A stretch of DNA of 37,987 nt from Chloroflexota bacterium (GTDB taxonomy: Bacteria; Chloroflexota; Anaerolineae; J102). The position numbers and the translations under genes were made by a program. Of this stretch, positions 18,004 through 35,662 are shown piece after piece. The notes under the pieces were generated by a model. It made no database searches. It saw only the letters and a program-made list of their open reading frames with translations, and was not told the DNA's origin. Each line of letters begins with the position of its first letter. The stretch's first letter is position 1. Location of the stretch: NCBI GenBank assembly GCA_003353825.1, contig PIVW01000003.1, forward strand, positions 1-37,987, read 5' to 3'.

Positions 18004-18067
18004 TCGCCTCTGCTGCGAACGATAAGCACGGGCACTCATTCCTATACCACTTTTTGCAGGCAGTTTC

Positions 18068-19378
18068 ATGCCACAGTCGCTGATAACGCAATCACATCTC
18101 ATCTGTATTGGATTCAACCACCGATCGTCATCGGTGGCGCTGCGAGAACAACTCAATTGCCCGCTGCAGTCTCTCAAACAGCATGCATTCCACCCATCCT
18201 TTGCCCATAACGACAGCAATGGGACTACGATCCACGAATTGGCATTGCTATCGACATGTAATCGTTGGGAGCTTTATTCCATAGTCAGTGATTCGACAAG
18301 CGATGTTCGGGCATCGATGATTGGCCTGGTGGCAGAAGCCCATCAATTGGATGTCTCTATACTGGCGGAAAAGGCCCATTTTTATCGGGGCGATGAAGCC
18401 ATTCAACACCTTCACAGGGTGGCATGCGGGCTGGAGTCGCAGGTTCTGGGGGAAGATCAGGTGCTGGGACAGGTGTCTGGCGCCTGCCGTGAGGCGGTTG
18501 AAACAGCCTCGGTTGGCATCGTGCTTGATTCCGTGTTTCGTAGTGCCATCTCCGCAGGCAGGAGCGCGCGCACACAAACCGCTATCGCCAATCATCCTGC
18601 CAGCATTAGTTCCGTAGCATTGGCAGCGGCCCAGGCTGCTGTTGGGGACTTGAGCGGACGGCGAGTCTTGGTGGTCGGTTTGGGGGAGATGGCCGAGCTA
18701 GCACTAAAATCCCTGCGCGCACGTGGCGTCAACACAATTGGTTTGGTCAACCGTACCTATGCCCGTGCCCTGGCTGAAGCTAAAGGTGGGGGGTATCGAG
18801 TCTGGCCATGGCAAGCACTCGCTGAAGCGCTGACCTGGGCGGATGTGGTGATCACGGCTACCGGTGCGAGCACATCCGTCATCTCTGCAAAGACACTGCA
18901 TGCGGCCGTGGCGGACCGCAGAAAACCACCTCTGGTGATCGTGGATATAGCCGTCCCCAGAGATGTTGCCCCCGATGCAAGATCGCTGCCCGGTGTACGT
19001 CTGATCGGTATAGAGGATCTAGAGATGACACTCGACGAAAACCTGGCGGCACGCCGCCGGGCCATTCCTCATGTCGAAGCCATTATCAGTCAGGAAATGG
19101 CCTGTCTAGATGCCAGGCTACAGGAATTGGCTGTCCGTCCCCTCATCACCAACTTGAGGCACAAGGCAGAAGCCATACGCAGCCAGGAATTGCAGCGAAC
19201 GCTTAAGTATCTGGGTGATGTCGAACCTGAGACATTGTCCCATATCCAGCACTTATCTCACTCGCTGGTAAACAAGCTACTCCATGAGCCGACAGTTCGG
19301 TTACGGGCAAAAGCCAATCAGGGAGAAGCAGAACTGTACATTGATACAGTGCGCGATCTCTTTGACCTGGAGGTATAG
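18068..19378 (+). CDS. hemA: glutamyl-tRNA reductase
   Basis: This 436-residue enzyme makes the first committed step of C5 tetrapyrrole synthesis, reducing glutamyl-tRNA to glutamate-1-semialdehyde with NADPH. The catalytic Cys64 lies in LLSTCNRWELY. GLESQVLGEDQVLGQV is the conserved substrate-site helix, and GRRVLVVGLGEMAELALKSL (about 198-217) is the NADPH fold. The C-terminal dimerisation domain contains HLSHSLVNKLLHEPTVRL. It follows the radical SAM gene after 64 bases and precedes hemC by 7 bases. Its product is used by HemL at the far end of the same operon. The protein has full length and all expected motifs. Confidence 0.97.
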   Translation: MPQSLITQSHLICIGFNHRSSSVALREQLNCPLQSLKQHAFHPSFAHNDSNGTTIHELALLSTCNRWELYSIVSDSTSDVRASMIGLVAEAHQLDVSILAEKAHFYRGDEAIQHLHRVACGLESQVLGEDQVLGQVSGACREAVETASVGIVLDSVFRSAISAGRSARTQTAIANHPASISSVALAAAQAAVGDLSGRRVLVVGLGEMAELALKSLRARGVNTIGLVNRTYARALAEAKGGGYRVWPWQALAEALTWADVVITATGASTSVISAKTLHAAVADRRKPPLVIVDIAVPRDVAPDARSLPGVRLIGIEDLEMTLDENLAARRRAIPHVEAIISQEMACLDARLQELAVRPLITNLRHKAEAIRSQELQRTLKYLGDVEPETLSHIQHLSHSLVNKLLHEPTVRLRAKANQGEAELYIDTVRDLFDLEV

Positions 19379-19385
19379 GTAGCCT

Positions 19386-20309
19386 ATGTCGGCATCAAGT
19401 AAGCAGATCTGGGCCATCGGCACGCGTAAGTCAGCCCTGGCGCAATGGCAGACACAATTTGTGAGCTCGTTGCTTATGGCTGCCTGGCCGCAGTCGCACT
19501 TCAGTATTAAGTTTTTCAGCACCCAGGGTGATGTGATCTTGGAGAAACCTCTCCCGCAGATTGGGGGCAAGGGGCTATTTACACAGGAATTGGAGAACGC
19601 CTTGCGAGAGGGTGAAATTGATTTTGCCGTACATTCCTTAAAAGACCTGCCGGTCGAACATGCACCAGGTCTGACCCTGGGAGCCATCTTTGGCCGCAAC
19701 GAAGTACGGGATGTACTTATCGCCAGACATGACTGGACGCTGGAAACACTGCCAGAATCTGCCATCGTCGGTACCAGTAGCCTCAGACGTCAGGCGCAGT
19801 TGCTGGATCAGCGATCTGATCTCAGGGTGCGTTCAATTCGGGGCAATGTGGGCACTCGCATCGAGAAAGTGGTTGCCGGTGATTTCGATGCTATTGTCTT
19901 GGCGGGAACAGGCGTCGAGAGATTGTCGTTGTCTGGTCATATCAGCCAGTGGCTACCACTCGATGTCATGCTGCCGGCGCCAGGACAAGGAGCTTTGGCA
20001 GTGCAATGTCGAGAAGATGATACAGAAACGCTGAATTTACTGGCCGAGATCGATGCGGCTGAGCTGCGTATGTGTACGCACACTGAACGCACCTTTCTTC
20101 ATGCGCTGGGTGCTGGCTGCTCGACGCCGGTTGCCGCTTACGCCACGCTTGAGTCAGGTGTGCTGGCGATGTCGGTGTTGGCCGCAGCCCCCGATGGTAG
20201 CGAGATCGTTCGGGCCGAGGGGGTAGATAGTGATCCAGTTGGGCTTGGCAATATTCTAGCTGAACGAGTACTGTCACTCGGCGGCGGGGAGATTCTGGCT
20301 CGTGTCTGA
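19386..20309 (+). CDS. hemC: hydroxymethylbilane synthase (porphobilinogen deaminase)
   Basis: This 307-residue enzyme polymerises four porphobilinogens into hydroxymethylbilane. The N-terminal IGTRKSALAQWQT, the basic segment TSSLRRQAQLLDQR and RSIRGNVGTRIEK, and the dipyrromethane-cofactor attachment Cys245 in LGAGCSTPVAAY are all present. LPAPGQGALAVQCRED is also typical. The gene is 7 bases behind hemA, and its last 8 bases overlap hemD. Confidence 0.97.
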   Translation: MSASSKQIWAIGTRKSALAQWQTQFVSSLLMAAWPQSHFSIKFFSTQGDVILEKPLPQIGGKGLFTQELENALREGEIDFAVHSLKDLPVEHAPGLTLGAIFGRNEVRDVLIARHDWTLETLPESAIVGTSSLRRQAQLLDQRSDLRVRSIRGNVGTRIEKVVAGDFDAIVLAGTGVERLSLSGHISQWLPLDVMLPAPGQGALAVQCREDDTETLNLLAEIDAAELRMCTHTERTFLHALGAGCSTPVAAYATLESGVLAMSVLAAAPDGSEIVRAEGVDSDPVGLGNILAERVLSLGGGEILARV

Positions 20310-21075
20310 AGCCCTGCAAAATCGCCGTGTGGTTGTGACACGTAGTGTAGATCAGGCTCTGGCGTTGGTTGCCGACTTGGAGCGTTTGGGTGCTATCCCG
20401 CTGGTGGTTCCCGCCATCCAATTCGTATCACTGCCGGCCGATCAGTTGGACGATGCCCTGTGCCGGATCACGACCTACGATTGGCTGATATTCACCAGTG
20501 CCAACGCCGTAAGGTTTTTTTTCGACTATGTCGATACCTTGGCAATGGCCACTTCCTTGCCAAAACTCGCTGCTATCGGCGACGCCACCGCCGATCTGCT
20601 AAGATCGAGAAATGTGGAACCCGATTTTGTGCCCTCTCAATTTATGGGCGAACAGTTGGTGCAGGGTCTTGGTGAACTACGAGATGCTCGAGTACTGCTG
20701 CCCCGTTCACGCATAGGCCGGCCTGAAGTCGTAGAGTCGTTGCAGGCATGCGGCGCGCAGGTCGACGATATCGCTTTATACGATACGATTACAGCGCCAG
20801 CGCACCCCGCCATGTTGGCAGAACTTGGCCAAGGTTTCGATGCCATAATCTTTACCAGTCCCTCCAGCGTGCGGAATTTTCTGAAGATAATCGAGGATAT
20901 GCCTGATCTGAGGGAACAGCTCGACCAAGCCGCCATCGCCTGTATTGGCCCTACGACGGCTGCAACTGCACAAGAAAATGACCTGGTCGTATCCGTTATG
21001 CCGGAGGTTTATACTATCGCCGCTCTGACCCAGGCGCTCGCCAGTTATTACGATTTACAACCCATATTAACATGA
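20302..21075 (+). CDS. hemD: uroporphyrinogen-III synthase
   Basis: This 257-residue enzyme cyclises hydroxymethylbilane with inversion of ring D. The family is poorly conserved, but [50 protein letters not shown] and [13 protein letters not shown] fit the two-domain fold. Start is GTG at 20302, overlapping the hemC stop by 8 bases; no other start would give the full N-terminal strand. The stop overlaps the hemB start (ATGA). Operon position between hemC and hemB fixes the assignment. Confidence 0.93.
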
Positions 21076-22067
21076 ATTCATATCCATCTGCTTCATATCC
21101 GACAAAACGCCATAGACGCTTGCGCCGTACGCCATCGCTCAGACGAATGGTTAGGGAGACGCATCTCTCGCCTGCGGACTTTATCTATCCATTGTTCGTA
21201 CAACATGGCCAGAATGTCTGCCAACCCATTGCCTCGATGCCGGGACAGTTTCGCCTGCCGCTCGACCAACTATCAGCAGAGGCGAACGAGATCATGAGCC
21301 TGGGTATCCCGGCCGTGATCCTTTTTGGCATTCCTGCTGAAAAAGATGCGGTTGGGCTGGAGAATTTCGCAGATAATGGCATCGTGCAGCAGGCGATTCG
21401 CTTGCTCAAAGAGGCTGAGCCCGACTTGGTCGTGATCAGCGATGTCTGTTTGTGCGAGTACACCGATCATGGCCACTGTGGACTACTGAACCCTGCCGGC
21501 GAGATCCTCAATGATGAAACTCTCGATATCCTGGCAACAGTGGCGATTTCCCACACCAGAGCAGGGGCAGATATTGTTGCCCCAAGTGGCATGATGGATG
21601 GTATGGTACAAGCAATCCGTTTGGGTCTCGACGCACATGGTTTTCACCAGACGCCGATTATGTCGTATGCCGTCAAGTATGCCTCTGCGTTTTACGGACC
21701 CTTCCGCGAAGCTGCCGATGGTGCGCCGAAATTTGGTGATCGTCGCAGCCATCAGATGGATGCTGCCAATGTGAAGGAAGCGCTACGTGAAGCTGGTGCA
21801 GACGTGTCTGAAGGCGCCGATTTTCTCATGGTAAAACCGGCATTGGCGTACCTCGATGTGATTGCGCGCGTCAAGGACCGCTATCCCCATATCCCTCTGG
21901 CAGCATACAATGTCAGCGGCGAGTATGCGATGCTCAAAGCCGCTGCGGCCAACGGCTGGCTCAACGAACAGGAGGTCGTCTTGGAGACACTTCTAAGCAT
22001 AAAAAGAGCCGGTGCTGATCTTATAATAACCTATCACGCCAAAGAAGCGGCTCGTTGGCTGACGTAA
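21072..22067 (+). CDS. hemB: delta-aminolevulinic acid dehydratase (porphobilinogen synthase)
   Basis: This 331-residue enzyme condenses two 5-aminolevulinates to porphobilinogen. Schiff-base lysines are K202 ([14 protein letters not shown]) and K255 ([13 protein letters not shown]). The metal-binding cysteine set C126, C128 and C136 in [15 protein letters not shown] indicates a zinc-dependent form. The N-terminus [16 protein letters not shown] is normal. It overlaps hemD by four bases. A 177-base gap without a recognisable gene follows before hemQ, so a second promoter may lie there, but I cannot define one. Confidence 0.98.
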
Positions 22068-22244
22068 CAGATTACCCTGAGATGAGATAGGCCACAAAGT
22101 ACATAGCCTTAAACTCGATTAGCTCTTATAGAATCTGCGTACCTCCAACAAAATAGGCATGCCTCGTTAGCACCACGCACCACGTGTTTTCCAGAACCAC
22201 GCGAAACCCTAATGAATCAAGCTATTCATATTTGAGAAAAAGTC

Positions 22245-22973
22245 ATGGCAAATACGACAATTGAGACTATCGATATATCTGAAAAAGGACGAAACCAGAT
22301 CGGTGAGGCCATCTCACTGGACCGGCGCCTGTTCATGCAACTGCTTGCCTTTGGTGGCGTTAGCAACGTCGCTTCCTTGATAGAGGCACTGGCTGAGGCG
22401 AATCTTCCTGGCGCGCTCTATGCGGATGTCAATGATCCCCAGGGTGTGGCGCTTTTATCCTTTACCGAGGATCCAGATTTCTTTATTGATGTGGCTCGAC
22501 CCTTTGTCAAAGCCCCACCATTCAATTTGTTGAGCCCCAAACCTGAGTATACGATGCTGGGCCGAACCTACGCAATTGGCTATGAAAATGATCTGGAACA
22601 GGCCTTGATCACGCGGCCGCGGCAGAAGGTATGTAATACGGCTATGCCCTGGGCCATCTGGTATCCGCTGCGTCGCTCCGGCAGTTTTGAACAGTTGTCT
22701 GCGCAAGAGCAACGTCAGATTTTGGCAGAACATGGGGGCATTGGTCGAGCTTACGGGCGGGCGGGGTACGGCACCGATATCCGACTGGCCTCACATGGTC
22801 TTGACAAGAATGACAATGATTTTACCGTCGCCCTGCTGGGTCCTGAACTTTACCCCCTTTCGAGTATTGTCCAACGTATGCGTAAAACAAAACAGACCTC
22901 TTTGTATCTGGAACATTTGGGGCCATTCTTTATTGGAAAAGCGATTTGGCAAAACGAGGGGCACGGCAAATGA
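22245..22973 (+). CDS. hemQ: HemQ/ChdC coproheme decarboxylase, chlorite dismutase family
   Basis: This 242-residue protein belongs to the chlorite dismutase fold. In the coproporphyrin-dependent route it uses peroxide to decarboxylate iron-coproporphyrin III twice, giving heme b. Probable proximal heme ligand H163 lies in AEHGGIGRAYG. The candidate catalytic Tyr140 is in IWYPLRRSGSFEQLS, and GLDKNDNDFTVALLG is the conserved C-terminal strand. The true chlorite-splitting enzymes have a distal Arg environment that I cannot confirm here. Operon context with hemE, hemH and hemY, and absence of hemN/hemF, supports the heme role. The stop overlaps the hemE start. Confidence 0.88.
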   Translation: MANTTIETIDISEKGRNQIGEAISLDRRLFMQLLAFGGVSNVASLIEALAEANLPGALYADVNDPQGVALLSFTEDPDFFIDVARPFVKAPPFNLLSPKPEYTMLGRTYAIGYENDLEQALITRPRQKVCNTAMPWAIWYPLRRSGSFEQLSAQEQRQILAEHGGIGRAYGRAGYGTDIRLASHGLDKNDNDFTVALLGPELYPLSSIVQRMRKTKQTSLYLEHLGPFFIGKAIWQNEGHGK

Positions 22974-24061
22974 ATCACCCTCAACCTGCTCGTCTAACTG
23001 AAGAGTCGCAACTTGTAACGAGCTCGCGCTTTCTGCGAGCCTGCCGAGGCCTGCCCGTGGACCATACCCCAATCTGGCTGATGCGTCAGGCCGGCAGGTA
23101 TATGCCGGAGTACCGTGCTGTGCGCGCCCAACACAGCATGTTAGATGTAATAAGCACGCCTGAGCTAGCAGCCGAAGTGACCCTCCAACCTATCGATGCC
23201 TTCGGCTTTGATGCCGCCATCATCTTTGCCGATATCTTGCCCTCCCTCATCGGCATGGGGCTGAAACTGGACTTCGTTTCCGGAAAGGGACCGGTCATCG
23301 ACAATGCACTTGACAGCACTTACAAGATCGATCTTTTGGCCACGCCACCGGCTGAAGATACGATTCTGGCAGGGACCTTGCAAGCGATCCGGCTTGTTGC
23401 GGCGCAATTGAATCCTCGCGGTATTCCCTTGATCGGCTTTGCCGGCGCTCCCTTCACACTTGCCAGCTATGCCATCGAGGGGGGCGGCTCGAAGAACTAC
23501 AGTAAAGTCAAGGCACTGCTGTACAGCGAACCGGCGGCGTGGAAACGCCTGATGAACAAACTGGTGACCGTTCAGGCTGATTACCTGCTCAAACAGGTCG
23601 AAGCAGGCGCGTCCGCTCTACAACTTTTCGATTCCTGGGTAGGGAGCGCTTTAGGGCGTGATGACTATCTGCGCTACGTGCAACCCTATAATACGGCTCT
23701 GTACAGACAATTACAGCGCGCCCAGGTTCCGGTTATCAATTTCAGTGCCGGGACTGCTCCATATATCAAAGATGTGATCGCCTGTGGTGGTGATGTCGCC
23801 GGCGTTGACTGGCGTATGCCGCTGGACTGGTATTGGCAGAAGATCGGATACGAGCATCCTATTCAGGGAAATCTGGACCCCACCCTTTTGCTGGCACCCT
23901 GGCGGGAGTTGGCATACCATGCCGACGCCCTTCTCGGCAGTGCCGCAGATCGCCCCGGCCACATCTTTAATCTCGGACATGGCATTTTGCCTAACACCCC
24001 AATCGAAAATGTACAACGTCTCGCCGATCTCGTGCGAGAACGCACGACAGCTCCCATTTGA
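22970..24061 (+). CDS. hemE: uroporphyrinogen decarboxylase
   Basis: This 363-residue enzyme converts uroporphyrinogen III to coproporphyrinogen III. The family signature WLMRQAGRYMPEYRAVR holds the substrate arginines. FADILPSLIGMG contains the catalytic Asp, and LIGFAGAPFTLASYAIEGG and GHGILPNTPIENV are present. ATG 22970 overlaps the hemQ stop as ATGA and gives the normal N-terminus; an in-frame upstream start at 22946 would run inside hemQ and is less likely. The product feeds HemY, HemH and HemQ encoded around it. Confidence 0.98.
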   Translation: MNHPQPARLTEESQLVTSSRFLRACRGLPVDHTPIWLMRQAGRYMPEYRAVRAQHSMLDVISTPELAAEVTLQPIDAFGFDAAIIFADILPSLIGMGLKLDFVSGKGPVIDNALDSTYKIDLLATPPAEDTILAGTLQAIRLVAAQLNPRGIPLIGFAGAPFTLASYAIEGGGSKNYSKVKALLYSEPAAWKRLMNKLVTVQADYLLKQVEAGASALQLFDSWVGSALGRDDYLRYVQPYNTALYRQLQRAQVPVINFSAGTAPYIKDVIACGGDVAGVDWRMPLDWYWQKIGYEHPIQGNLDPTLLLAPWRELAYHADALLGSAADRPGHIFNLGHGILPNTPIENVQRLADLVRERTTAPI

Positions 24062-24086
24062 TCGATATATAAAATCGATATATAAA
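24061..24086. repeat. 13-bp direct tandem repeat before hemH
   Basis: Two adjoining copies of ATCGATATATAAA occupy most of the 29-base hemE-hemH gap. Each copy contains a short ATCGAT palindrome. No role is evident, and the hemH gene lacks a strong ribosome site there. Confidence 0.7.
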
Positions 24087-24090
24087 CCTG

Positions 24091-25089
24091 ATGGCTATTA
24101 ACTCAATGAACCCAATTCGATATCCTATCGGTGTGCTGGTAATGGCCTACGGCGGGCCGAATTCGCTTGACGAACTGCCCGGCTATCTGTCAGATATCCG
24201 TAGTGGTCGGCCCACCACACCTGCTGTACTAGAAGAGATAACTTATAACTACCAACAGATTGGCGGGCGATCACCACTGCTTGGAATCAGCACAAAACAG
24301 GTCGCAGCCGTTGAACGACTGCTGAACCCAAGCGTCTATCGCTGTTACCTGGGTATGCGTCACTGGTCCCCCTGGATCGAAGATGTGGTTGAACAGATGA
24401 TAGTCGATGGTATTACACACGCCGTGAGTATTGTGTTGACGCCGCATTTCAGCAAACTCAGTGTGGCCAAGTACCAGGCCAAGGTCACTGACGGCCTGGA
24501 TATGTATCGTGGGCAGATAAGATTCGAACATATCGCCAGCTACCATGATGCCCCAAAACTTATTCAGGCCTTTGCCAATCGCGTGCAGCTGGCTCTTGAT
24601 TGCTGGCCGGTAGATGAGCAGGACGACGTCCATGTGGTATTCAGTGCGCACAGTTTGCCAGTGCGTATTGTCAAAATGGGTGATCCTTATGACGATCAGC
24701 TGCGCGAAACGGCTGGCTTGGTCGCAGCTTGCGCCGGTCTTAGTGAGAGACAATGGTCGTGGAGCTACCAATCGGCAGGTCGTAGCCCCGAACCCTGGTT
24801 GGGTCCGCAATTGGGAGAACACCTGCACGATCTCGCCCGTCGTGGTATCAAGAACATCGCCAGTATCCCGGTCGGTTTTGTCTCGAATCACGTCGAGATA
24901 CTCTATGATATCGACATCCAGGCGCGAGAATTGGGACGAGAACTGGGGCTTAGGTTAGAACGCCCGCCGGCACTGAATCTCGATCCTCTGTACATCGAGA
25001 CCCTGGTCGACTTGATACAAACCCGTGCTGCGCCCTGGCTGCCACTCGCCGAATCTGCCGAACCTGTAACAACTATTCCAGGAGTATAA
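24091..25089 (+). CDS. hemH: ferrochelatase (coproporphyrin ferrochelatase in this pathway)
   Basis: This 332-residue enzyme inserts ferrous iron into a porphyrin. Metal-site residues H187 (FSAHSLPVR) and E269 (SNHVEILYDID) are present, as are VLVMAYGGPNSLDELPGYL and LGMRHWSPWIEDVV. Because hemQ and a HemY-type oxidase are in the same operon and no HemN/HemF is seen, the likely substrate is coproporphyrin III rather than protoporphyrin IX. It sits 29 bases after hemE and 6 before hemL. Cys pairs for a [2Fe-2S] cluster, known in some family members, are not obvious. Confidence 0.95.
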   Translation: MAINSMNPIRYPIGVLVMAYGGPNSLDELPGYLSDIRSGRPTTPAVLEEITYNYQQIGGRSPLLGISTKQVAAVERLLNPSVYRCYLGMRHWSPWIEDVVEQMIVDGITHAVSIVLTPHFSKLSVAKYQAKVTDGLDMYRGQIRFEHIASYHDAPKLIQAFANRVQLALDCWPVDEQDDVHVVFSAHSLPVRIVKMGDPYDDQLRETAGLVAACAGLSERQWSWSYQSAGRSPEPWLGPQLGEHLHDLARRGIKNIASIPVGFVSNHVEILYDIDIQARELGRELGLRLERPPALNLDPLYIETLVDLIQTRAAPWLPLAESAEPVTTIPGV

Positions 25090-25095
25090 CCTCTG

Positions 25096-26382
25096 ATGCT
25101 AGATCATTCGCAATCCAATGAGCTTTTTGCCTGGGCACAAAACTTGATGCCGGGCGGTGTAAGTTCTCCAGTGCGTGCGTTTCGTGCCGTGGGCGGCCAG
25201 CCCCTCTTCATCGAACGGGGTGAAGGGGCCACTATTTACGATGTGGATGGGAATCGCTATATCGATTACGTGTTGTCTTGGGGGCCATTGATATTGGGAC
25301 ACGCGCACCCAGATATTGTGTCGGCGCTGCAACAAACGGTGGCAAAGGGAAGCAGCTTTGGCGCCCCCAGTCCTTTGGAGATCGAACTGGCTGAACTGAT
25401 CATGTCGTTCATATCCTCTATTGAGATGCTGCGTTTCGTCAATTCGGGCACAGAAGCAACCATGAGCGCCTTACGTCTCGCCCGAGCATTTACAGGACGG
25501 TCGAAGATCATCAAGTTTATCGGCAACTATCACGGACATGCAGATATGCTGCTGGTGCAAGCTGGTTCAGGCGTGGCCACGCTGGGATTGCCCGATTCGC
25601 CGGGCGTACCCGCAGCCACTGTCTCCGATACGTTGTCAGCGGTTTATAATGACGCCGATTCGGTTGCCCGCTTGTTCGAGCGCTTCCCAGATCAGATCGC
25701 CGCTGTCATCGTCGAACCGGTGGCGGGGAATATGGGCTTGGTTCCTTCTGTCGATGGTTTTCTGCAAAGTCTTCGTGATCTGACCGAGTCATACGGTGCG
25801 CTGCTCATCTTCGATGAGGTGATGACCGGTTTCCGAGTGCATTCTGGTGGTGCTCAGACATTGTACGGGATCCAACCCGATCTCACAGCACTAGGCAAAG
25901 TAATAGGTGGTGGCCTACCGGTCGGCGCCTACGGAGGGCGACGAGAGATCATGGAAATGGTGGCGCCACTCGGGTCCATGTATCAGGCCGGGACATTGTC
26001 AGGTAATCCTTTAGCGATGGCTGCCGGCATTGCCACGCTAAAGGGTCTGCAGACGCCGGGAATTTGGGAAGGGTTTGAAACGCATGGCGATCAATTGCTA
26101 AATGGATTGAACGATATCGCCGCCTCCGCCAAAATCCCGCTTGTGAGTAATCGAATCGGATCGATGTTTGGCATGTTTTTCAGCAAACAAGTGGCCACAG
26201 ACTGGGACTCGGCTAAATTGGCGAACATAGAGAGGTTTAGCCGCTATTTCAATCTGATGCTAGATAGTGGTATCTACCTGGCCCCTTCGCAATTCGAAGC
26301 CGGTTTTCTCTCGACACGACATGGCAGTGACGAAATCGCAACCACCCTCGCCGCTGCCGAGTACGCTTTTAGCAGGATATGA
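25096..26382 (+). CDS. hemL: glutamate-1-semialdehyde 2,1-aminomutase
   Basis: This 428-residue PLP enzyme converts glutamate-1-semialdehyde to 5-aminolevulinate, the second step of the C5 route started by HemA. PLP lysine K268 lies in [50 protein letters not shown] and [10 protein letters not shown] are family signatures. It has normal length. The gene is 6 bases after hemH and 7 bases before hemY. Placing an early-pathway gene this late in the operon is unusual in order but not in content. Confidence 0.97.
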
Positions 26383-26389
26383 GTTAGCC

Positions 26390-27838
26390 ATGGTTACAAT
26401 AGACGCCGGTGCGGAAACAAAAGAGGCTCCCCACGTTGTCATTGTCGGTGGTGGGATCGCCGGCTTGAGCACAGCTTACTACATGCAAAAAGAGGCGGAT
26501 AACAGCGGCAGAGCATTGCGCTACACGCTGGTGGAATCGGCGTCGCGCCTGGGTGGCAAACTTTTAACCGAACACATCGATGGCTTCACCGTCGAAGGTG
26601 GTCCCGACAGTTTCATTACCCAAAAGCCGGCAGGGCTGAAACTGGTGTCTGAACTAGGTATCGAGGATGAATTGATCGCCACGCAGGATAAGAACAAAGG
26701 GGTGTTTGTCTATCAAGGCGGCAAGCTTAAATCTTTGCCAGATGGCGTGATGTTAATTGTGCCCACCGAGATTATGCCTTTTGCCTTGAGCACATTGTTC
26801 ACACCCTGGGGCAAACTACGTATGGGCATGGATCTGCTCCTGCCTGGACGCCAGGACGATGGCGACGAGACCTTGGCCGACTTCATTCTCCGGCGCCTGG
26901 GCAACGAAGCCTTGGACCGTCTGGCCGAGCCCCTGATGGCCGGGATATACAATGCCGAGGCTGATGCTCAGAGCATTATGGCGACTTTTCCACGCTTTCG
27001 AGCGATCGAGAAAAAGCATGGTAGCCTGATCCGTGGCATGTTGGCCGCCCGACGCAATCGCCCGGCGCCAGCCCCCAGCAACGGTGCTAGACCGCGCACA
27101 GTATTCATGTCCTTACGACCAGGCATCAGCGCCCTCTCTGAGGCGATTGCAGATACTTTGAACGGAGAGATTCGCACCGGGATCGGCGTGCAGACAATCG
27201 AAGCGCTAGAGCAGGGCTATCGACTACATCTATCGGATGGCGACCAGTTGTTCGCTGATGCCGCGGTGCTGGCGACACCGGCCTATGTGACAGCCGATAT
27301 TGTTGAGGCTATGCGTCCCGATCTGGCGGACTCGTTGCGGCGCATTCGCTATGTCAGCACGGGGACACTTTCTTTGGCCTATCGCCGTGACGATGTTCCT
27401 CAGGCGATGAACAGTTTCGGCCTCGTCATTCCTCGCAGCGAGGGCAGGCAGATAAACGCCATCACCTGGACTTCCAGCAAGTGGCCGTATCGGGCCCCGG
27501 ATGATGCGGTGTTATTCAGAGTGTTTTTTGGCGGTTCTCGCCATCCCGAAGTCTTTGCCCTACCCGATGATGAGCTACTGGCTGTTGTGAAAGGGGAAGT
27601 CGTCTCTATTATGGGTGTAACCGCCGAGCCAATGTTTAGCCGCATCTACCGTTGGCAAGACGCATCTCCGCAATACGACGTCGGCCACCTGGATCGGGTA
27701 TCGGCTCTGGAAGCAGCTTGCCCGCCAGGGTTTTTTCTTAGCGGTAGCGCTTACCGCGGGGTGGGCATTCCCGACTGTATTGCCCAGGGTGAGGCGAGCG
27801 CTCGCACCGTGCTTCAACGATTGTTTTCCGTTTCTTAA
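26390..27838 (+). CDS. hemY: HemY/CgoX porphyrinogen oxidase (oxygen-dependent)
   Basis: This 482-residue FAD enzyme has dinucleotide motif VVIVGGGIAGLSTAYYM (about 16-32), ESASRLGGKLLTE, VEGGPDSFITQKPAGL and the C-terminal FAD loop SAYRGVGIPDCIAQGE. Together with HemQ it indicates the coproporphyrin route, where it oxidises coproporphyrinogen III to coproporphyrin III using oxygen. ATG 26390 is chosen because the longer frame lies inside hemL. It is the last gene of the operon, followed at 27945 by an intrinsic terminator. The use of oxygen contrasts with the radical SAM enzyme at the head of the operon. Confidence 0.94.
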   Translation: MVTIDAGAETKEAPHVVIVGGGIAGLSTAYYMQKEADNSGRALRYTLVESASRLGGKLLTEHIDGFTVEGGPDSFITQKPAGLKLVSELGIEDELIATQDKNKGVFVYQGGKLKSLPDGVMLIVPTEIMPFALSTLFTPWGKLRMGMDLLLPGRQDDGDETLADFILRRLGNEALDRLAEPLMAGIYNAEADAQSIMATFPRFRAIEKKHGSLIRGMLAARRNRPAPAPSNGARPRTVFMSLRPGISALSEAIADTLNGEIRTGIGVQTIEALEQGYRLHLSDGDQLFADAAVLATPAYVTADIVEAMRPDLADSLRRIRYVSTGTLSLAYRRDDVPQAMNSFGLVIPRSEGRQINAITWTSSKWPYRAPDDAVLFRVFFGGSRHPEVFALPDDELLAVVKGEVVSIMGVTAEPMFSRIYRWQDASPQYDVGHLDRVSALEAACPPGFFLSGSAYRGVGIPDCIAQGEASARTVLQRLFSVS

Positions 27839-29525: not shown

Positions 29526-30235
29526 GGCCGGCGCTCCAACCACACGCCAACCAGGATGCCTGCCAAACTAGCCAGCATTAAACCGATCTTGTATGGGAAG
29601 TTAAAAGTCAGGGCGGCCACTACCCCGGCCACCAGCGCCGCTGCCACACTGGGATGGTCACGCAGCGTGGGGATCACCAAACCGATAAAAGTCAACGCTA
29701 AGGTAAAATCAAGGGACCATGAGGCAGGAACTTGAGTCCCCAGGAACACACCAATCACAGTGCTGATCTGCCAGACGACCCACAGTGTCAGGCCACTGCC
29801 CAAAAAGAACCAGTGCTTTTTCGCCAGGGACACACTGCTATCACGATAATGTAAGATCGTCATGGCATAGGCTTCGTCGGTTAGTAGATAGGCCAGCAGC
29901 CAATGCCATCTTCGGCTGAGATGCTTAACATGGGGCGCCAGTGAAAAACCATAAAGCGCGTGTCGAAGATTGACCACAAAAGTGGTAATCACGACGACAA
30001 AGGCCGGCGTGCTAAGCCCGATCAACTGTGCGCCGATAAATTGCGCCGATCCGGCAAATACCACCGATGACATCGCAATCGCGAGTACTGGAGGCAGACC
30101 CGCCCCCAAAGCGATGACACCAAAGATCAAGCCGAAAGGAACCACACTGAAAGCCACGGGGATTTCAGCGCGGATACCGGCCAGCAATTCAGCGCGCGCA
30201 GTTAATGCGCCGGGTTCTTCAACATCTTGACTCAT
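29522..30235 (-). CDS. azlC: AzlC-type branched-chain amino acid exporter subunit
   Basis: This is a 237-residue membrane protein with about six helices. FSVVPFGLIFGVIALGAGL, SSVVFAGSAQFIGAQLIG, VVNLRHALYGFSLAPHV and LLTDEAYAM are characteristic AzlC motifs. ATG 30235 overlaps the stop of the DUF89 gene (ATGA), and the azlC stop overlaps azlD. The three genes therefore form one translationally coupled set, implying that the exporter serves the same metabolic task as the DUF89 protein. Confidence 0.93.
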   Translation of the reverse strand: MSQDVEEPGALTARAELLAGIRAEIPVAFSVVPFGLIFGVIALGAGLPPVLAIAMSSVVFAGSAQFIGAQLIGLSTPAFVVVITTFVVNLRHALYGFSLAPHVKHLSRRWHWLLAYLLTDEAYAMTILHYRDSSVSLAKKHWFFLGSGLTLWVVWQISTVIGVFLGTQVPASWSLDFTLALTFIGLVIPTLRDHPSVAAALVAGVVAALTFNFPYKIGLMLASLAGILVGVWLERRP

Positions 30236-31449
30236 GAGGGCAAGCAGCTCTGGATGACACCCCTGCGACCGATGACCATCCACTCGCTGTCTTCGTCGCT
30301 TAAACGCTCGATCTGCTCGGCCTGTAGACCCAGCACATGCTGCCCCTTGAGTGTACGCAGTGCCACCATCGGCGCCGGGAAATAGGCCAAAACCTGAGCG
30401 AATGGCGTTGTGAAGGGCCAGTGCGCGTCACCATGCAAGCGCCTATAATTGGCGTCACCTTTTACCAGTACCAAATCCATGGTGGCTAAGAGGTCGTGTA
30501 GGTCTGCCGGTAATTGATAGTAGAACAGGCTGGTGGTGTAGAACCAGTGACTGAACAAACACAAGCGACCTGATCCGATGTGCTCGCTCAATCTACGTGC
30601 CAGGTCGATGGCTGCTTCACCACCCGACTCAAGGGCAATGATGCCGTCGAAAACATCCTTGGGCATGGCATCAGACACAAAATAGGGCTGGTCTTTGAGA
30701 TGGAGGGTGACCTTGTCCGCCAGCCCTTCATCCAACATGAACGCAGCCAGGGCCAGGTCCATGAGCAACTCGGTGCCGGCATTGTCGCAGAGAATGACAA
30801 CTTGGGGCCCGCTCAAACTCTGCACGTGCTCCCAGAGCTGGGGTGTGTCGTCGACCAGTAGGTTTTCCCGCTCGGCATCCTTGCTCGCCTGGTTACCTAA
30901 ATGCCCACCAACATTGTAGCTGAGATCGACACGGTTGCCCCAGAGATTGGCGTGAATCAGCCTCTCAAAACGATCCTCGATGCCTTCCGGTAGATCGCTG
31001 AGAATGGCATCGACGGTGGTGGGTGCGGCTGGCGCCGCCCACTCCTGCTGTTTAATACTGGTATTCGGATCGTAGTTCCACATCGGACCCGGCTGGAAGT
31101 AGTGCGATTCCTGCAAAATCCGCCGATAAAAATAGGCCTCCGCCCAAAACCAGGGCACATCCAACCAGGAGCGTCCGAGATAGGGTCTGTTGGTCGGATC
31201 CCAAAATGCGCGGTCGGGTGTATCTTCACGTAAGTTTTGGACAACACCTTGGGTCAATTCTTCATAGAAATCCTCCATATCCCGGTGCACATCCGCTGGA
31301 AAAGGGCTGTCGTCGATGAGCTTCCGTAAAATCCTCGGTACCCGGTTTTTCAGCGTCCTGTGCGCAAAAGAATCAGATTCAGAGGTGAGCAAAAGCTCTG
31401 GGAATGTATCGAGATCGATTCGTGGTGATGGGATGTGGTAATTTGTCAT
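30232..31449 (-). CDS. DUF89/ARMT1-family metal-dependent phosphatase-like protein
   Basis: This protein has about 405 residues from ATG 31449 (MTNYHIPSPRIDLDTFP); the longer frame to 31533 has no support. The DUF89 fold is recognised by VVILCDNAGTELLMDLALAA, with its metal-site Asp-Asn, and by LVLVKGDANYRRLHGDAHW. An N-terminal helical domain (about 10-180) includes SWLDVPWFWAEAYFYRRI. Members hydrolyse phosphate from damaged or intermediate sugar phosphates and related metabolites; the human relative ARMT1 is in this group. The substrate is unknown here. The gene is coupled to azlCD downstream and is divergent from the ATP-grasp gene. Confidence 0.88.
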   Translation of the reverse strand: MTNYHIPSPRIDLDTFPELLLTSESDSFAHRTLKNRVPRILRKLIDDSPFPADVHRDMEDFYEELTQGVVQNLREDTPDRAFWDPTNRPYLGRSWLDVPWFWAEAYFYRRILQESHYFQPGPMWNYDPNTSIKQQEWAAPAAPTTVDAILSDLPEGIEDRFERLIHANLWGNRVDLSYNVGGHLGNQASKDAERENLLVDDTPQLWEHVQSLSGPQVVILCDNAGTELLMDLALAAFMLDEGLADKVTLHLKDQPYFVSDAMPKDVFDGIIALESGGEAAIDLARRLSEHIGSGRLCLFSHWFYTTSLFYYQLPADLHDLLATMDLVLVKGDANYRRLHGDAHWPFTTPFAQVLAYFPAPMVALRTLKGQHVLGLQAEQIERLSDEDSEWMVIGRRGVIQSCLPS

Positions 31450-31526
31450 TGCAGTTTGATGGATTATCAGCCAAGGTTGAATCTGTATGAGTGAAACGCA
31501 GAAAGTGATCGGCAGAAACGTCAGGT

Positions 31527-31547
31527 TCTTCAATCTTTAATCTTCTG
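31527..31547. repeat. short heptamer array, three units
   Basis: TCTTCAA, TCTTTAA and TCTTCTG follow each other in 7-base phase in the gap between the divergent DUF89 and ATP-grasp genes. The first unit is identical to a unit of the array at 925-959. Confidence 0.45.
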
Positions 31548-31562
31548 CCAACCGCCATTATA

Positions 31563-32834
31563 ATGCCTACCATGTCAAACGCCATTTTGAACCCCTCTCT
31601 ACCTAGACGTGTGATCCTGCTCGCTGCTGCTAACTCATATCGTATGCAGGCCTTTGCCGACGCCGCTGAAAACCTGGGTATCGAAGTCATCCAGGGCTCC
31701 GATGTACCCCCACCCCTTTTAAATACGGCCGCTGCGGCCTTGCCCATCGATTATCGGGATATCCCCAAGTCAGCTGAGATCATCGTCGATTACGCCAATG
31801 ATCAGAGGGTCGACGCTATCCTGGGCCTGGATGATTCAGGCATTTTGTTGGCTGCTGCGGCAAGCGATATCCTTGGCTTAGTTCATAACGCCCCCGAGGC
31901 CGCTCGTGCAGCGCACAGCAAATACCTCATGCGCCGACATTTCGCAGATGCTGAGGTCTTATCCCCAGGTTTTCGCCGATACCATTTGCATGATGATCCC
32001 GAGGAGATGTTGGAAGAGGTAAGCTACCCATGCGTGATAAAACCCACAGCATTGGCCGGCAGCCAGGGGGTGATGCGCGCTGATTCTCCTGAGGAACTGC
32101 TTGCGTGTTATTATGATCTACGCCCGATTCTACTCGCCCAAGGCTGCGATGAGCTGCTGGTCGAGGATTATATTCCAGGGGTGGAGGTAGCGCTGGAGGG
32201 GTTGTTGGATGAGGGGGAACTGCACATCCTGGCCCTGTTCGATAAACCTGATCCGCTAGAGGGTCCGTTTTTTGAAGAAACCATTTACGTCACTCCCTCC
32301 CGACTTTTTGAAACCGACCAACAGGCGATTCGCTCCTCTGCTGCAGCCGCAGCCGCAGCGTTGGGTTTGCGCTCGGGACCAGTTCACGCTGAACTACGCT
32401 TGAATGAACAAGGGGCATGGCTGGTAGAACTGGCAGCTCGCTCCATCGGCGGTCTCTGCGCCCAGACCTTACGATTCGGCGACGACATCTCTCTGGAAGA
32501 GCTGATTTTGCGCCAGGCGCTCGGTCTGGACCTAAAGGTCGATGATCTGTCCGCTCAAGCGCGTGGTGTCATGATGATCCCCATTCCCACAGCCGGCGTC
32601 TTGCGCGCCGTATCCGGTATCGAACTCGCCATGACCACACCCTGTATCGACGAGATTGAGATCACTGCCCAGCTCAGCTATCCCGTTACTCCGCCCCCCA
32701 AGGGCAACAGCTACCTCGGCTTCATCTTCGCTACCGGCGACACCCCCGATGCTGTCGAAGCAGCACTACGAGAATCACACAGTAAGCTCCATTTCGAGAT
32801 CGAGCAAGAGATCGTGTTGCGAAGTGGCAGTTAG
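31563..32834 (+). CDS. ATP-grasp carboxylate-amine ligase family protein
   Basis: This 423-residue protein has the three ATP-grasp parts: an N-terminal Rossmann-like domain (about 15-105, RRVILLAAANSYRMQAFADA), the ATP-binding lobe with YPCVIKPTALAGSQGVMRA (about 154-172) and LLVEDYIPGVEVALEGLLDE, and the metal-binding core with HAELRLNEQGAWLVELAARS. It resembles L-amino-acid ligases and related enzymes that join a carboxylate to an amine through an acyl phosphate. Two starts, ATG 31563 and ATG 31572, are possible. It converges on the radical SAM selenoprotein gene, with 84 bases between the two true ends. The substrate is not predictable from sequence. Confidence 0.85.
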   Translation: MPTMSNAILNPSLPRRVILLAAANSYRMQAFADAAENLGIEVIQGSDVPPPLLNTAAAALPIDYRDIPKSAEIIVDYANDQRVDAILGLDDSGILLAAAASDILGLVHNAPEAARAAHSKYLMRRHFADAEVLSPGFRRYHLHDDPEEMLEEVSYPCVIKPTALAGSQGVMRADSPEELLACYYDLRPILLAQGCDELLVEDYIPGVEVALEGLLDEGELHILALFDKPDPLEGPFFEETIYVTPSRLFETDQQAIRSSAAAAAAALGLRSGPVHAELRLNEQGAWLVELAARSIGGLCAQTLRFGDDISLEELILRQALGLDLKVDDLSAQARGVMMIPIPTAGVLRAVSGIELAMTTPCIDEIEITAQLSYPVTPPPKGNSYLGFIFATGDTPDAVEAALRESHSKLHFEIEQEIVLRSGS

Positions 32835-32918: not shown

Positions 32919-34364
32919 TTACATCAATATCCGACCCAACTGGTCGGTGCTGGGCTCTGCTCAGCAGAACCAATCTTCGCTGAGACGAGGGGGGGGATAG
33001 GTTCTCTGTTTAGGTGCTGAATGTGAGGGGCGCGTTAACCCGGCAAAGCTATAAGCCATTGTCTCGATCGTGTTGAAGACTGTTTCGTTAGCAGAGGTCG
33101 GATCTCCACCTTTCTGCGCTACGAGGTTGGCGATCTCTCGTTGCAAGCTGTCCATGCGGGGATCTCGATGCTGCCACGCATGCACGAAATTGGGCGCATC
33201 CAGGTCGCCGACCCACGTTTCACGGTCTGGGTGCTCGAGTATGGCACTGCCGGGCGGGACAAGTAAACGGATCGAGAGTTGAACCGGCGGCGTGTTAGGT
33301 ACCAGATCTCGGCTGCGGATCCAGGCCAGAAGGTCGAGATAGTCTTGCAGGGTGGCCCATGGCGTAAAGGGCATCCAGGTAGGTTGCACAGGCAGGCCGG
33401 CGTCGGCAAGGATGGTGAGAGCCTCGTCCATGTCAGATACGGTATGGCCCTTGTTCAATCTTGCAAGTACAGTGTCGCTGGTTGCCTCAAAAGCGGAGAC
33501 AACGAAACTTGCGCCCAGCGATTTGAGCTTTGGCATGAGTCCACGATGTTCAAGGAGGTGTTCGACCTTCGTGGTGAAGTCGAACGTAATACCACTGTGG
33601 ATTTCGTGTAGCCATCTGGCTATCTGTCTGACGTAGCCGGGGCCATTCAGAAAATCAGGGTCACCAAAGGTGATGTGGCGAGCACCGGAAGCGATCTGTT
33701 GTTCGATATCAGCCTTGACAACTTCTGCCGGTACCACAAAAAAACGTCCCTCATAAATCGGTGTAATGGGGCAGTGTCGACAGGTGTGCAAACAACCCCG
33801 GCTGGCTTCGACGTAGCCAGCGCGCGTGCGCCTGCCGTTTTCAATATAGTGCGCGTAGTGATCAAGTGCAGGTAAGACTTCACGATGTGGGACGGGAAAA
33901 CCCTGGCGTTCGAGATTGGGCTGCCGACAACCTGCTGAGGTTGATACCCCACGAACCGAATCGACATCTCCATCGTTTTCCAGGGTACGCACTAAGTTGA
34001 GCAGCGGCGCTTCATATTCACCGGCGATCACGGAATCCGCCAGCGGTAAGACTCCATTCACTCGCTGGAACAAGTAGCTTGCGTTTAGCTGGGCATAGAG
34101 CCCGTAAAAACAAATGTGTGCGTCCGGGTTGATCGTTCGCACTTGTTCCGCTACCTGCACGGCCAGGCGCATGGCGGTGTGCATGGGCGCCGCCATGCCC
34201 ACCACATCGGCTCCCCTTACAGCCTCGATCGATAGGGTTTCGAGCGAAAGATCTTGGGCCAACACATCGAACCCGGCTCCGTTTAACGTTGCCAGGGGCC
34301 AGGCCAGACTTAAGGGCTGATGTCCCAGTTCGTAGGAGGCCAGCAACAGAACCTTCAACTTCAT
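32919..34364 (-). CDS. CUAEP-tail radical SAM selenoprotein with B12-binding-type N-terminal domain
   Basis: The frame from ATG 34364 meets TGA at 32961-32963 after 467 residues in the context SEDWF-Cys-TGA-Ala-Glu-Pro. It then continues in frame for 13 more residues (AEPSTDQLGRILM) to TAA 32919-32921. Cys-Sec-Ala-Glu-Pro is the defining tail of the CUAEP/CCAEP-tail radical SAM family, in which U is selenocysteine or Cys. Decoding TGA as Sec468 gives 481 residues. A SECIS-like hairpin follows the TGA. The N-terminal cobalamin-binding-like domain (about 1-140) includes LAWPLATLNGAGFDV. The radical SAM motif is C191-X3-C195-X2-C198 in ASRGCLHTCRHC. The start overlaps the YggX-like stop (ATGA). 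The reaction is unknown; the Cys-Sec pair suggests redox chemistry at the tail. Confidence 0.93.
32931..32963 (-). promoter_or_regulatory. selenocysteine TGA and SECIS-like hairpin
   Basis: The UGA (32961-32963) is followed by a 6-bp stem CCGACC/GGTCGG (32947-32942 with 32936-32931) with loop AGTTG. The apical loop begins 20 nt after the UGA, within the window described for bacterial SECIS elements, and has G at its second position as that consensus requires. The stem can be extended downward by further pairs with one mismatch. The element lies in the coding region, as expected for bacteria. SelB recognition is inferred. Confidence 0.8.
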
Positions 34365-34678
34365 TTACTCTGTGGTGCGGGTGCACCTTTACCGCCACCT
34401 TTGCCGCCCTGGCTTGGTGGCGTCCATCCCTCGGGCATCTGTGCATCATCGTCGAAGAAGAACTCTTCCATCTGTTCCATCATAAAGGCATTTGCCTGGG
34501 GGTCCAGGAGATTGAGCCCATAATGATTGATCAGAATCGTGGCCTGCTGCAACCACATATTCCATGCTTCTTGTGAAACGTTCTCGTAAATTCGCTGCCC
34601 CAGGTCACTCGAAGCGGGAGGTGCGGCCAGACCGGGCAATTCCTGCCCCAGTTTCACGCATTGAACCATTCGTGTCAT
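34361..34678 (-). CDS. YggX-like Fe(2+)-trafficking / oxidative damage protection protein
   Basis: This protein has about 105 residues from ATG 34678 (MTRMVQCVKLGQELPG); an alternative ATG at 34693 adds five residues. It matches the YggX family: the N-terminal Cys7 in VQCVKL, LGQRIYENVSQEAWNMWLQQ, TILINHYGLNLLDPQANAFM and the acidic C-terminal stretch before PEGWTPP. The last 17 residues are a Gly/Lys/Pro-rich tail beyond the usual end. YggX proteins help keep Fe-S clusters intact under oxidative stress. Its stop overlaps the start of the radical SAM selenoprotein (ATGA), implying joint production, perhaps to protect or supply that enzyme's cluster. Confidence 0.88.
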   Translation of the reverse strand: MTRMVQCVKLGQELPGLAAPPASSDLGQRIYENVSQEAWNMWLQQATILINHYGLNLLDPQANAFMMEQMEEFFFDDDAQMPEGWTPPSQGGKGGGKGAPAPQSK

Positions 34679-34753: not shown

Positions 34754-35662
34754 ATGTCAACTGTTTCGCGACGTATACTCTATTTGGGGAGGGGTGGGAT
34801 TCTCTCGTTACTGCCGTTGCGAGCACTTTTGGATGCAGGTGCACACGTTGTTGGCATCGTAGTGCCTGGGCCAAACGTCGAACCAGCTATGCAGACGCTC
34901 ACAGCGGATCCCCCCCTCGAGTCCGACCTCCCCCTTGCCCTAAGCGCGGTCGTGCCCGATATCCGGCATGAGGCCTGGCGGCATGATATTCCAGTGTTTC
35001 AAGTCGGAAACATGCGGGCTACTGAGGCGATTTCGGTAATGCGTGCCTTGCAAGCCGATGTCATTTGCGTCAGTTGTTTTCCACGCATCTTGCCAAAAGA
35101 GTGGTTGGATAGCCCAGCAGTTGGTGCGTTCAATCTTCATCCTTCACTCCTGCCGGCCTATCGTGGGCCAAACCCCATATTCTGGCAGTTTCGGGCCGGT
35201 GAAGGGCGTTTCGGCATGACGCTGCACTTCATGGACGAGGGCATCGACAGTGGCGATATCGTCGATCAAGGTGTGGTCTCCATGCCTGATGGTGTGACGA
35301 CTGTCGAAGCAACCGAGAGATTGGCGAAGCTCGGCGCCCGGCTGTTGGTCGATGCTCTGGCAAAACCCACACTGCCACGCCGGCCTCAATCCGAAACCGC
35401 TGCCAGCTATCAGAGCTTCCCCGCACCTGATCAATGGATTATCCCGACCACATGGTCAGCGAAGCGAGCGTACAACTTTATACGCGGCGCCGACTCGTGG
35501 GGGCCCTTCTTCATCGAGACATCTTCTGGTACTCTGCATGTTCATCGGGCAGTGGCGTTTGATGACAATAAGTCGCAAAAGGCCGCATACATTGTCGATT
35601 GCTCCACCCTCCAAGTCCGGTTCGCAAAAGGGACACTCACCGTCGCAGGTAGCCTAGTTTAG
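34754..35662 (+). CDS. formyltransferase family protein (Fmt/ArnA/PurN-like)
   Basis: This 302-residue protein has the formyltransferase catalytic set: NLHPSLLPAYRGPNPIFWQF with Asn and His, and HFMDEGIDSGDIVDQG with the catalytic Asp. The N-terminus RRILYLGRGGILSLLPLRAL is a Rossmann-type start. A smaller C-terminal domain (about 215-302) resembles the Fmt C-terminal fold but is short. Enzymes of this fold move a formyl group from 10-formyl-tetrahydrofolate to an amine. The divergent neighbour is the YggX/selenoprotein pair, so it may belong to a dedicated pathway rather than to initiator tRNA formylation. True fmt cannot be ruled out. Confidence 0.85.
   Translation: MSTVSRRILYLGRGGILSLLPLRALLDAGAHVVGIVVPGPNVEPAMQTLTADPPLESDLPLALSAVVPDIRHEAWRHDIPVFQVGNMRATEAISVMRALQADVICVSCFPRILPKEWLDSPAVGAFNLHPSLLPAYRGPNPIFWQFRAGEGRFGMTLHFMDEGIDSGDIVDQGVVSMPDGVTTVEATERLAKLGARLLVDALAKPTLPRRPQSETAASYQSFPAPDQWIIPTTWSAKRAYNFIRGADSWGPFFIETSSGTLHVHRAVAFDDNKSQKAAYIVDCSTLQVRFAKGTLTVAGSLV

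Follow-up and report, generated by a model that had tools for sequence, protein, structure and literature searches.

A radical SAM gene of a Chloroflexota bacterium with a predicted selenocysteine in its Cys-Sec-Ala-Glu-Pro tail and possible ArsL-like chemistry

The window, that is, the whole stretch of 37,987 nucleotides analyzed here, encodes a radical SAM protein of the CUAEP/CCAEP-tail family in which an in-frame UGA is, in our judgment, almost surely read as selenocysteine (Sec). We propose that this UGA gives rise to a Cys-Sec tail and that the resulting enzyme carries out ArsL-like chemistry on an acceptor held by that tail; we assign this explanation as a whole a probability of about 0.5. 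Sec decoding across the CUAEP/CCAEP family is close to certain, and for the source organism itself we infer it.

The radical SAM gene, its UGA codon, and its family

The radical SAM open reading frame (ORF) on the minus strand (34364..32961) comprises 467 codons and ends with RLSEDWFC, the next codon being TGA. This TGA (32963-32961) is flanked by TGC (Cys-467) on one side and by GCA-GAG-CCC (Ala-Glu-Pro) on the other, and it is followed by 13 sense codons and a TAA at 32921-32919, resulting in a read-through product of 481 residues. Read in frame, the end of the minus-strand gene (34364-32919) is thus DWFC-UGA-AEPSTDQLGRILM-UAA. The initial annotation had located the ORF end at TGA 32961 within Cys-TGA-Ala-Glu-Pro and had counted 13 further codons to a TAA and 481 residues, and the sequence bears out both statements. 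The features of this gene and its neighbors are as follows.

32919..34364, minus strand: gene for a predicted selenoprotein of the CUAEP-tail radical SAM family, with 481 residues, Sec-468, and CX3CX2C motif C191/C195/C198 (NF040546, 649.1 bits)
32961..32963, minus strand: in-frame UGA, predicted Sec codon (of 163 distinct loci, 118 have TGA here and 45 have TGC/TGT)
32922..32960, minus strand: 13-residue tail AEPSTDQLGRILM, dropped by standard annotation (Glu-Pro in 163/163; the Thermomicrobium roseum RefSeq protein ends WFC)
32931..32947, minus strand: SECIS-like hairpin of the bacterial type, 6 bp, loop AGUUG (same register in 89/116 UGA genes and 5/45 Cys genes)
31563..32834, plus strand: ligase of the ATP-grasp type whose C-terminal domain is that of L-amino-acid ligases (PF13535, PF18603); convergent with the radical SAM gene
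34361..34678, minus strand: YggX-like Fe(2+)-trafficking protein (PF04362), sharing 4 bases with the start of the radical SAM gene; its listed ORF extends to 34741
34754..35662, plus strand: formyltransferase (PF00551), divergent; its score is under the cut-off for Met-tRNA formyltransferase

When compared with NF040546, the model for CUAEP/CCAEP-tail radical SAM (seleno)proteins, the 481-residue protein scored well above the cut-off of 500 bits and still reached 628.8 bits without the tail. NF040546 ranked first among the NCBIfam models, followed by ArsL with 284 bits and a third family with 48 bits. This score and the Cys-Sec-Ala-Glu-Pro tail in frame substantiate the family membership that had been claimed initially. 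The family has already been named by NCBI, and the window gene joins it as a UGA-form member, in which the CX3CX2C motif and the tail are alike and no difference was found. The protein contains the radical SAM domain PF04055, and the B12-binding domain PF02310 scored 28.4 bits, below its cut-off of 32.1. In the alignment, CX3CX2C and the tail Cys-Cys/Sec are invariant in 51/51 CUAEP rows, and there is no other family-invariant Cys outside these two motifs. The nearest relatives are Chloroflexota bacteria, the closest (L001) having a protein that is 87% identical, and the NF040546 cut-off was passed in 93 of the 400 genomes sampled from the phylum of the nearest relative. Two other types of radical SAM protein, TIGR04167 and TrsS (NF045646), are tabled as selenoproteins in PMC13188914; the window protein has 16 NCBIfam matches, which include neither of these two, and assignment to the TIGR04167 type was rejected.

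To compile the codons found at the UGA site, two sets of loci were retrieved. (i) A scan of one genome per species provided 72 loci, 69 of which span the tail; 68 of these have TGA at the site and 1 has TGT. (ii) A search of the 400 phylum genomes provided 99 loci, including 6 whose genomes scored under the cut-off; 97 of the 99 span the tail, with 53 TGA and 44 TGC/TGT codons. The two sets and the window amount to 167 loci, or 163 once duplicates were removed. These 163 distinct loci contain 118 TGA codons, 45 Cys codons, and no other codon at the site. The UGA is followed by Ala in 116 and by Ser in 2 of the 118 UGA genes, and then by Glu and Pro in all of them; in the total set, Ala or Ser followed by Glu-Pro is found downstream of the site in 163/163 loci. 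The UGA genes vary synonymously in this segment, using four codons for Ala, two for Glu, and four for Pro. The exchange of Sec and Cys, together with the near-exclusively synonymous variation after the UGA, is the pattern of translated sequence. The census excludes the case, raised in the initial annotation, that all homologs end at this codon with no Cys/Sec alignment beyond it. Genome-wide recoding of UGA to another residue was rejected, because the site alternates only with Cys and the upstream YggX-like gene ends with TGA.

The initial annotation had also stated that standard gene calling removes the tail. This applies to Thermomicrobium roseum DSM 5159, where the gene is located on a complete plasmid (NC_011961.1, L190:6935-8371): the annotated RefSeq protein ends WFC, whereas the DNA continues TGA-AEP, and downstream of the TGA a GGACCC can pair with GGGTCC. 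The terms CUAEP and CCAEP were not found in the literature searched, in agreement with the initial statement that the reaction is undescribed; since coverage of this search was incomplete, we do not claim that the family is unreported. Likewise, term searches detected neither CUAEP nor NF040546 in the main text of a 2026 review of prokaryotic selenoproteins, and searches on the mercuric reductase tail and on Sec in T. roseum retrieved nothing usable.

The downstream hairpin and the Sec-decoding machinery

The hairpin CCGACC[AGTTG]GGTCGG (32947-32931) has a stem of 6 bp and a loop that begins at the 20th base after the UGA and has G as its second base, which corroborates the stem length, UGA-to-loop distance, and loop G described initially. 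We searched for hairpins in a fixed register, with the loop at the 20th or 21st base after the codon and a stem of at least 5 bp. The UGA counts refer to 116 of the 118 UGA genes, the other 2 having too little downstream DNA. Such a hairpin was present in 89/116 UGA genes versus 5/45 Cys genes. When the register was displaced by -8 to +19, the number of hits was 0 to 27 of the 116 UGA genes and up to 15 of the 45 Cys genes. Using one gene per 65% cluster, the hairpin was found in 40/43 UGA clusters versus 1/11 Cys clusters, whereas over 5,000 permutations of the 3' half the UGA count averaged 12 and never exceeded 22. Two stem positions pair far more often than expected, namely, +15/+29 (102 seen versus 48.6 expected) and +18/+26 (86 versus 48.3), in both cases with several standard pair types; the remaining stem pairs have less excess or none. 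A looser test, which accepted at least 5 bp and a loop G anywhere in the scanned range, was passed by 104/116 UGA genes and 25/45 Cys genes, with 30% and 39% of the respective shuffles passing, a weaker contrast than that obtained in the fixed register.

Codon usage within the loop follows the same division. Gln at +7, the source of the loop AG, is encoded by CAG in 108 and by CAA in 0 of the 116 UGA genes, compared with 25 CAG and 16 CAA in the 45 Cys genes, as would be expected if UGA genes maintained the loop AG at the RNA level. The 27 of 116 UGA genes without a fixed-register hairpin belong mostly to a small number of clusters, above all the L006 and L042 clusters. Four Cys-form genes of one clade (L101, L102, L104, and L105) still carry a hairpin at the SECIS position, and these look like remnants of a recent change from Sec to Cys. 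No Rfam family matched anywhere in the window.

A FastTree phylogeny of 161 family members and 5 ArsL rows implies at least 10 changes between Sec and Cys, or 7 if only starred branches are considered, counts that do not give the direction of change. The window protein is placed beside L001, within an all-Sec set of 44 rows. The decoding machinery was inspected in 17 family-bearing genomes, of which 17 contain selA over the cut-off, 17 tRNA-Sec, 16 selB, and 16 selD. All tRNA-Sec matches had E values of 9.3e-13 or better, a level reached among 14 controls only by E. coli and M. jannaschii. All four genes were found in 16/17 genomes, the exception being the nearest metagenome-assembled genome (MAG), that of L001 (G001), which consists of at least 604 contigs. 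This MAG contains selA and a tRNA-Sec, the latter confirmed by ARAGORN; selB and selD were not detected in it, and a related SelB protein used as the query did not retrieve a full-length selB. A candidate selB fragment (G001:C416) reads by eye like the start of EF-Tu and was not counted. In addition, all 16 genomes with a selD match contain a selD copy with one in-frame TGA (e.g., G015:C287:21201-22124), and one of them (G016) has a second copy without TGA; judged from these in-frame codons, SelD is therefore likely to be a selenoprotein in those genomes as well.

In the phylum set, selA was listed for 322/400 genomes. Matches with E values of 1e-40 or better, read by eye, were found in 51/53 UGA-form and in 42/44 Cys-form genomes, so that the Cys forms are not accounted for by a loss of the Sec machinery, and this origin is not supported. 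Four genomes lack a selA match, two of each form. A tRNA-Sec was nevertheless detected in the UGA-form genome G229 and the Cys-form genome G255, but not in the UGA-form genome G234 or the Cys-form genome G408.

Kinship with ArsL and gene neighborhood

According to PMC8552651 and PMC12159101, ArsL transfers the 3-amino-3-carboxypropyl (ACP) group of SAM onto As(III). The window protein scored below the cut-off of 450 bits for the ArsL model NF040542. In an hhalign comparison, CUAEP and ArsL aligned with a probability of 100 over 405 columns at 32% identity, the alignment stopping before the tail. In a joint alignment of 51 CUAEP and 35 ArsL rows, in which Sec was written as Cys, the only Cys columns invariant in both families were the three cluster Cys and the two tail Cys; given a long alignment gap and the choice of ArsL rows, which were every third among those ending in Cys, this equivalence of the tails is a reading and not a proof. 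Both families share the terminal vicinal Cys-Cys, but several differences are evident. (i) The tail is R-C-C-L-K-C in ArsL and C-U-A-E-P here, so that the third tail Cys of ArsL corresponds to Pro in CUAEP; 119 of the 120 ArsL relatives listed (the best 120 of 414) end RCCLKC, a C terminus that the window protein does not have. (ii) The window protein has Sec in its tail. (iii) The invariant Tyr/Ser beside the ArsL cluster are His-197/Pro-199 in CUAEP, so that the substrate or acceptor may differ too. (iv) Genes of ars clusters are rare near CUAEP genes.

The last point was assessed with 17 ars-cluster protein queries besides radical SAM and ATP-grasp, ArsH being represented only in part. Two ArsM queries retrieved one common gene, located 3 kb from a single CUAEP locus, and the ArsB query retrieved a transporter family in 10 loci, all of one cluster; the other 14 queries had no match around CUAEP loci. 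With so little found by these queries, an arsenic-operon setting for CUAEP genes was rejected.

Neighbors were counted in the 118 of 163 loci that have 3 kb on both sides. An ATP-grasp/L-amino-acid-ligase-like gene was found within 3 kb in 39/118 loci and 19/42 clusters, and it recurs in Chloroflexota, Nitrospirota, Latescibacterota, Calditrichota, and Planctomycetota. Other recurrent neighbors were the formyltransferase (35/118), the YggX-like protein (27/118), a DUF169 protein (22/118), and a protein that by eye resembles an Nfu/IscA fusion (20/118). At least one of these five was present in 76/118 loci, and none was found in 42/118. In a tblastn control, a recurrent neighbor was detected in 35/40 CUAEP neighborhoods of 6 kb versus 1/40 arbitrary places of 7.5 kb in the same genomes, which had been chosen for their long contigs.

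Six plasmids with an RCCLKC-tail gene were inspected, and in five of them an ATP-grasp gene is located no more than 4 kb from it. These five represent three lineages, namely, Priestia (2), Pantoea (2), and Alicyclobacillus (L191, L192, L194, L195, and L196); in the Pseudomonas plasmid cluster of the ArsL type, no ATP-grasp gene was found near the radical SAM gene. Of these ATP-grasp proteins, that of Alicyclobacillus was scanned, and it and the window ligase have the same best NCBIfam model, PRK02186, both scoring below the cut-off. The presence of this gene suggests that the RCCLKC-tail plasmid clusters could possibly make a peptide form of arsinothricin; no paper combining arsinothricin and ATP-grasp was found in the literature searched. 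Neither the relationship to ArsL nor the repeated occurrence of a ligase gene nearby was mentioned in the initial annotation; both points are added here.

Several other genes of the window were noted. A gene for an ARMT1-like damage-control phosphatase (PF01937, 209.8 bits; 30232-31533, minus strand) adjoins the ATP-grasp gene, and its family is not among the most recurrent neighbor families listed. Positions 16798-27838 (plus strand) contain what by eye is a run of heme biosynthesis genes (HemA, HemC, HemD, HemB, HemE, HemH, HemL, and HemY/HemG, with a possible HemQ). Upstream of it, a radical SAM/SPASM protein scored 444.8 bits against AhbD heme b synthase (cut-off 500), so the window possibly holds two heme-finishing routes side by side.

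Proposed chemistry and alternatives

ArsL is the nearest other family, its members end in Cys-Cys, and ATP-grasp genes occur near both; for these reasons, we tentatively propose, at somewhat less than even odds, that the CUAEP protein transfers the ACP group in an ArsL-like manner to a soft acceptor held by Cys-Sec. The UGA would be decoded as Sec with the aid of the downstream hairpin, yielding the 481-residue enzyme, and the Cys-Sec tail would catch a soft, thiol-seeking acceptor, for which arsenite, another metalloid, or a sulfur or selenium species are candidates. SAM would be cleaved in the ArsL way, and the resulting ACP radical would attack the tail-held acceptor to form a new amino acid, which the neighboring ligase or formyltransferase could join or cap. 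In a comparable way, mercuric reductase captures Hg(II) with a Cys-Cys tail, and thioredoxin reductase has a Cys-Sec tail that moves from one site to another.

The structure model of the CUAEP protein has a mean pLDDT of 93, which decreases to 78 and 69 in the tail blocks 461-470 and 471-480; the last two blocks of the ArsL model have values of 55 and 49 and are loose. The closest solved folds are those of AprD4 (PDB 6fd2) and of the B12-type radical SAM enzymes OxsB, TsrM, and MgmA, all of which share only 13 to 17% identity with the CUAEP protein. The fold is equally close to AprD4 and to the cobalamin-dependent members, the PF02310 match being subthreshold. A solved close relative was sought, and only AprD4 (E value of 0.0023) was retrieved. 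AprD4 and the B12-type radical SAM enzymes use deoxyadenosyl chemistry. These best-matching folds are in line with a different function of the tail, in which Cys-Sec is a redox or hydrogen-atom-donor device that resolves a substrate radical or keeps a thiol/selenol couple, while the usual 5'-deoxyadenosyl radical acts on an organic substrate. Also consistent with this alternative are the repeated swaps of Cys and Sec on the tree and the view, expressed in PMC9312934, that most prokaryotic selenoproteins serve redox reactions. However, ArsL, by far the closest other family, ends in Cys-Cys and, according to the sources cited above, performs ACP chemistry on arsenite, and we consider the redox alternative a serious but rather unlikely contender.

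Alternatively, the tail Cys and Sec might serve as ligands, either for an auxiliary Fe-S cluster or for the open iron in the SAM cluster. The neighborhood contains YggX-like and, by eye, Nfu/IscA-like proteins. To our knowledge, it would be uncommon for Sec to take the place of a Cys that ligates a cluster, and the tail offers two ligands only, with no more family-invariant Cys beyond CX3CX2C. We thus regard this role as distinctly improbable, even though, according to PMC11048331, the ACP-radical enzyme Dph1-Dph2 has tandem Cys that are candidates for Fe-S ligation. Finally, a plain stop at the UGA, with a functional 467-residue enzyme and a merely residual downstream match, agrees with the truncated forms carried by databases (P0001, P0002; T. 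roseum), but we give it next to no credence in view of the almost exclusively synonymous variation in Ala-Glu-Pro, the Cys codons that replace UGA in 45/163 loci, and the hairpin that is largely limited to UGA genes.

The preferred reading supplies a concrete proposal of mechanism for a common enzyme, namely, chemistry of the ArsL type carried out with a Cys-Sec tail. If this proves correct, the making of carbon-metalloid bonds would come to include a selenoenzyme, and an unknown class of metabolites would be indicated. Automatic annotation cuts off a likely active-site residue in many such genes, T. roseum included. More speculatively, and as an outcome that we hold to be unlikely, CUAEP proteins could be Sec-dependent makers of carbon-metalloid bonds for an undiscovered organoelement peptide, widespread in Chloroflexota and made by Poribacteria as well; the tail would load arsenic, selenium, or another soft element, to which the amino-acid arm of SAM would be added, and the ligase and formyltransferase encoded nearby would convert the amino acid so formed into the peptide.
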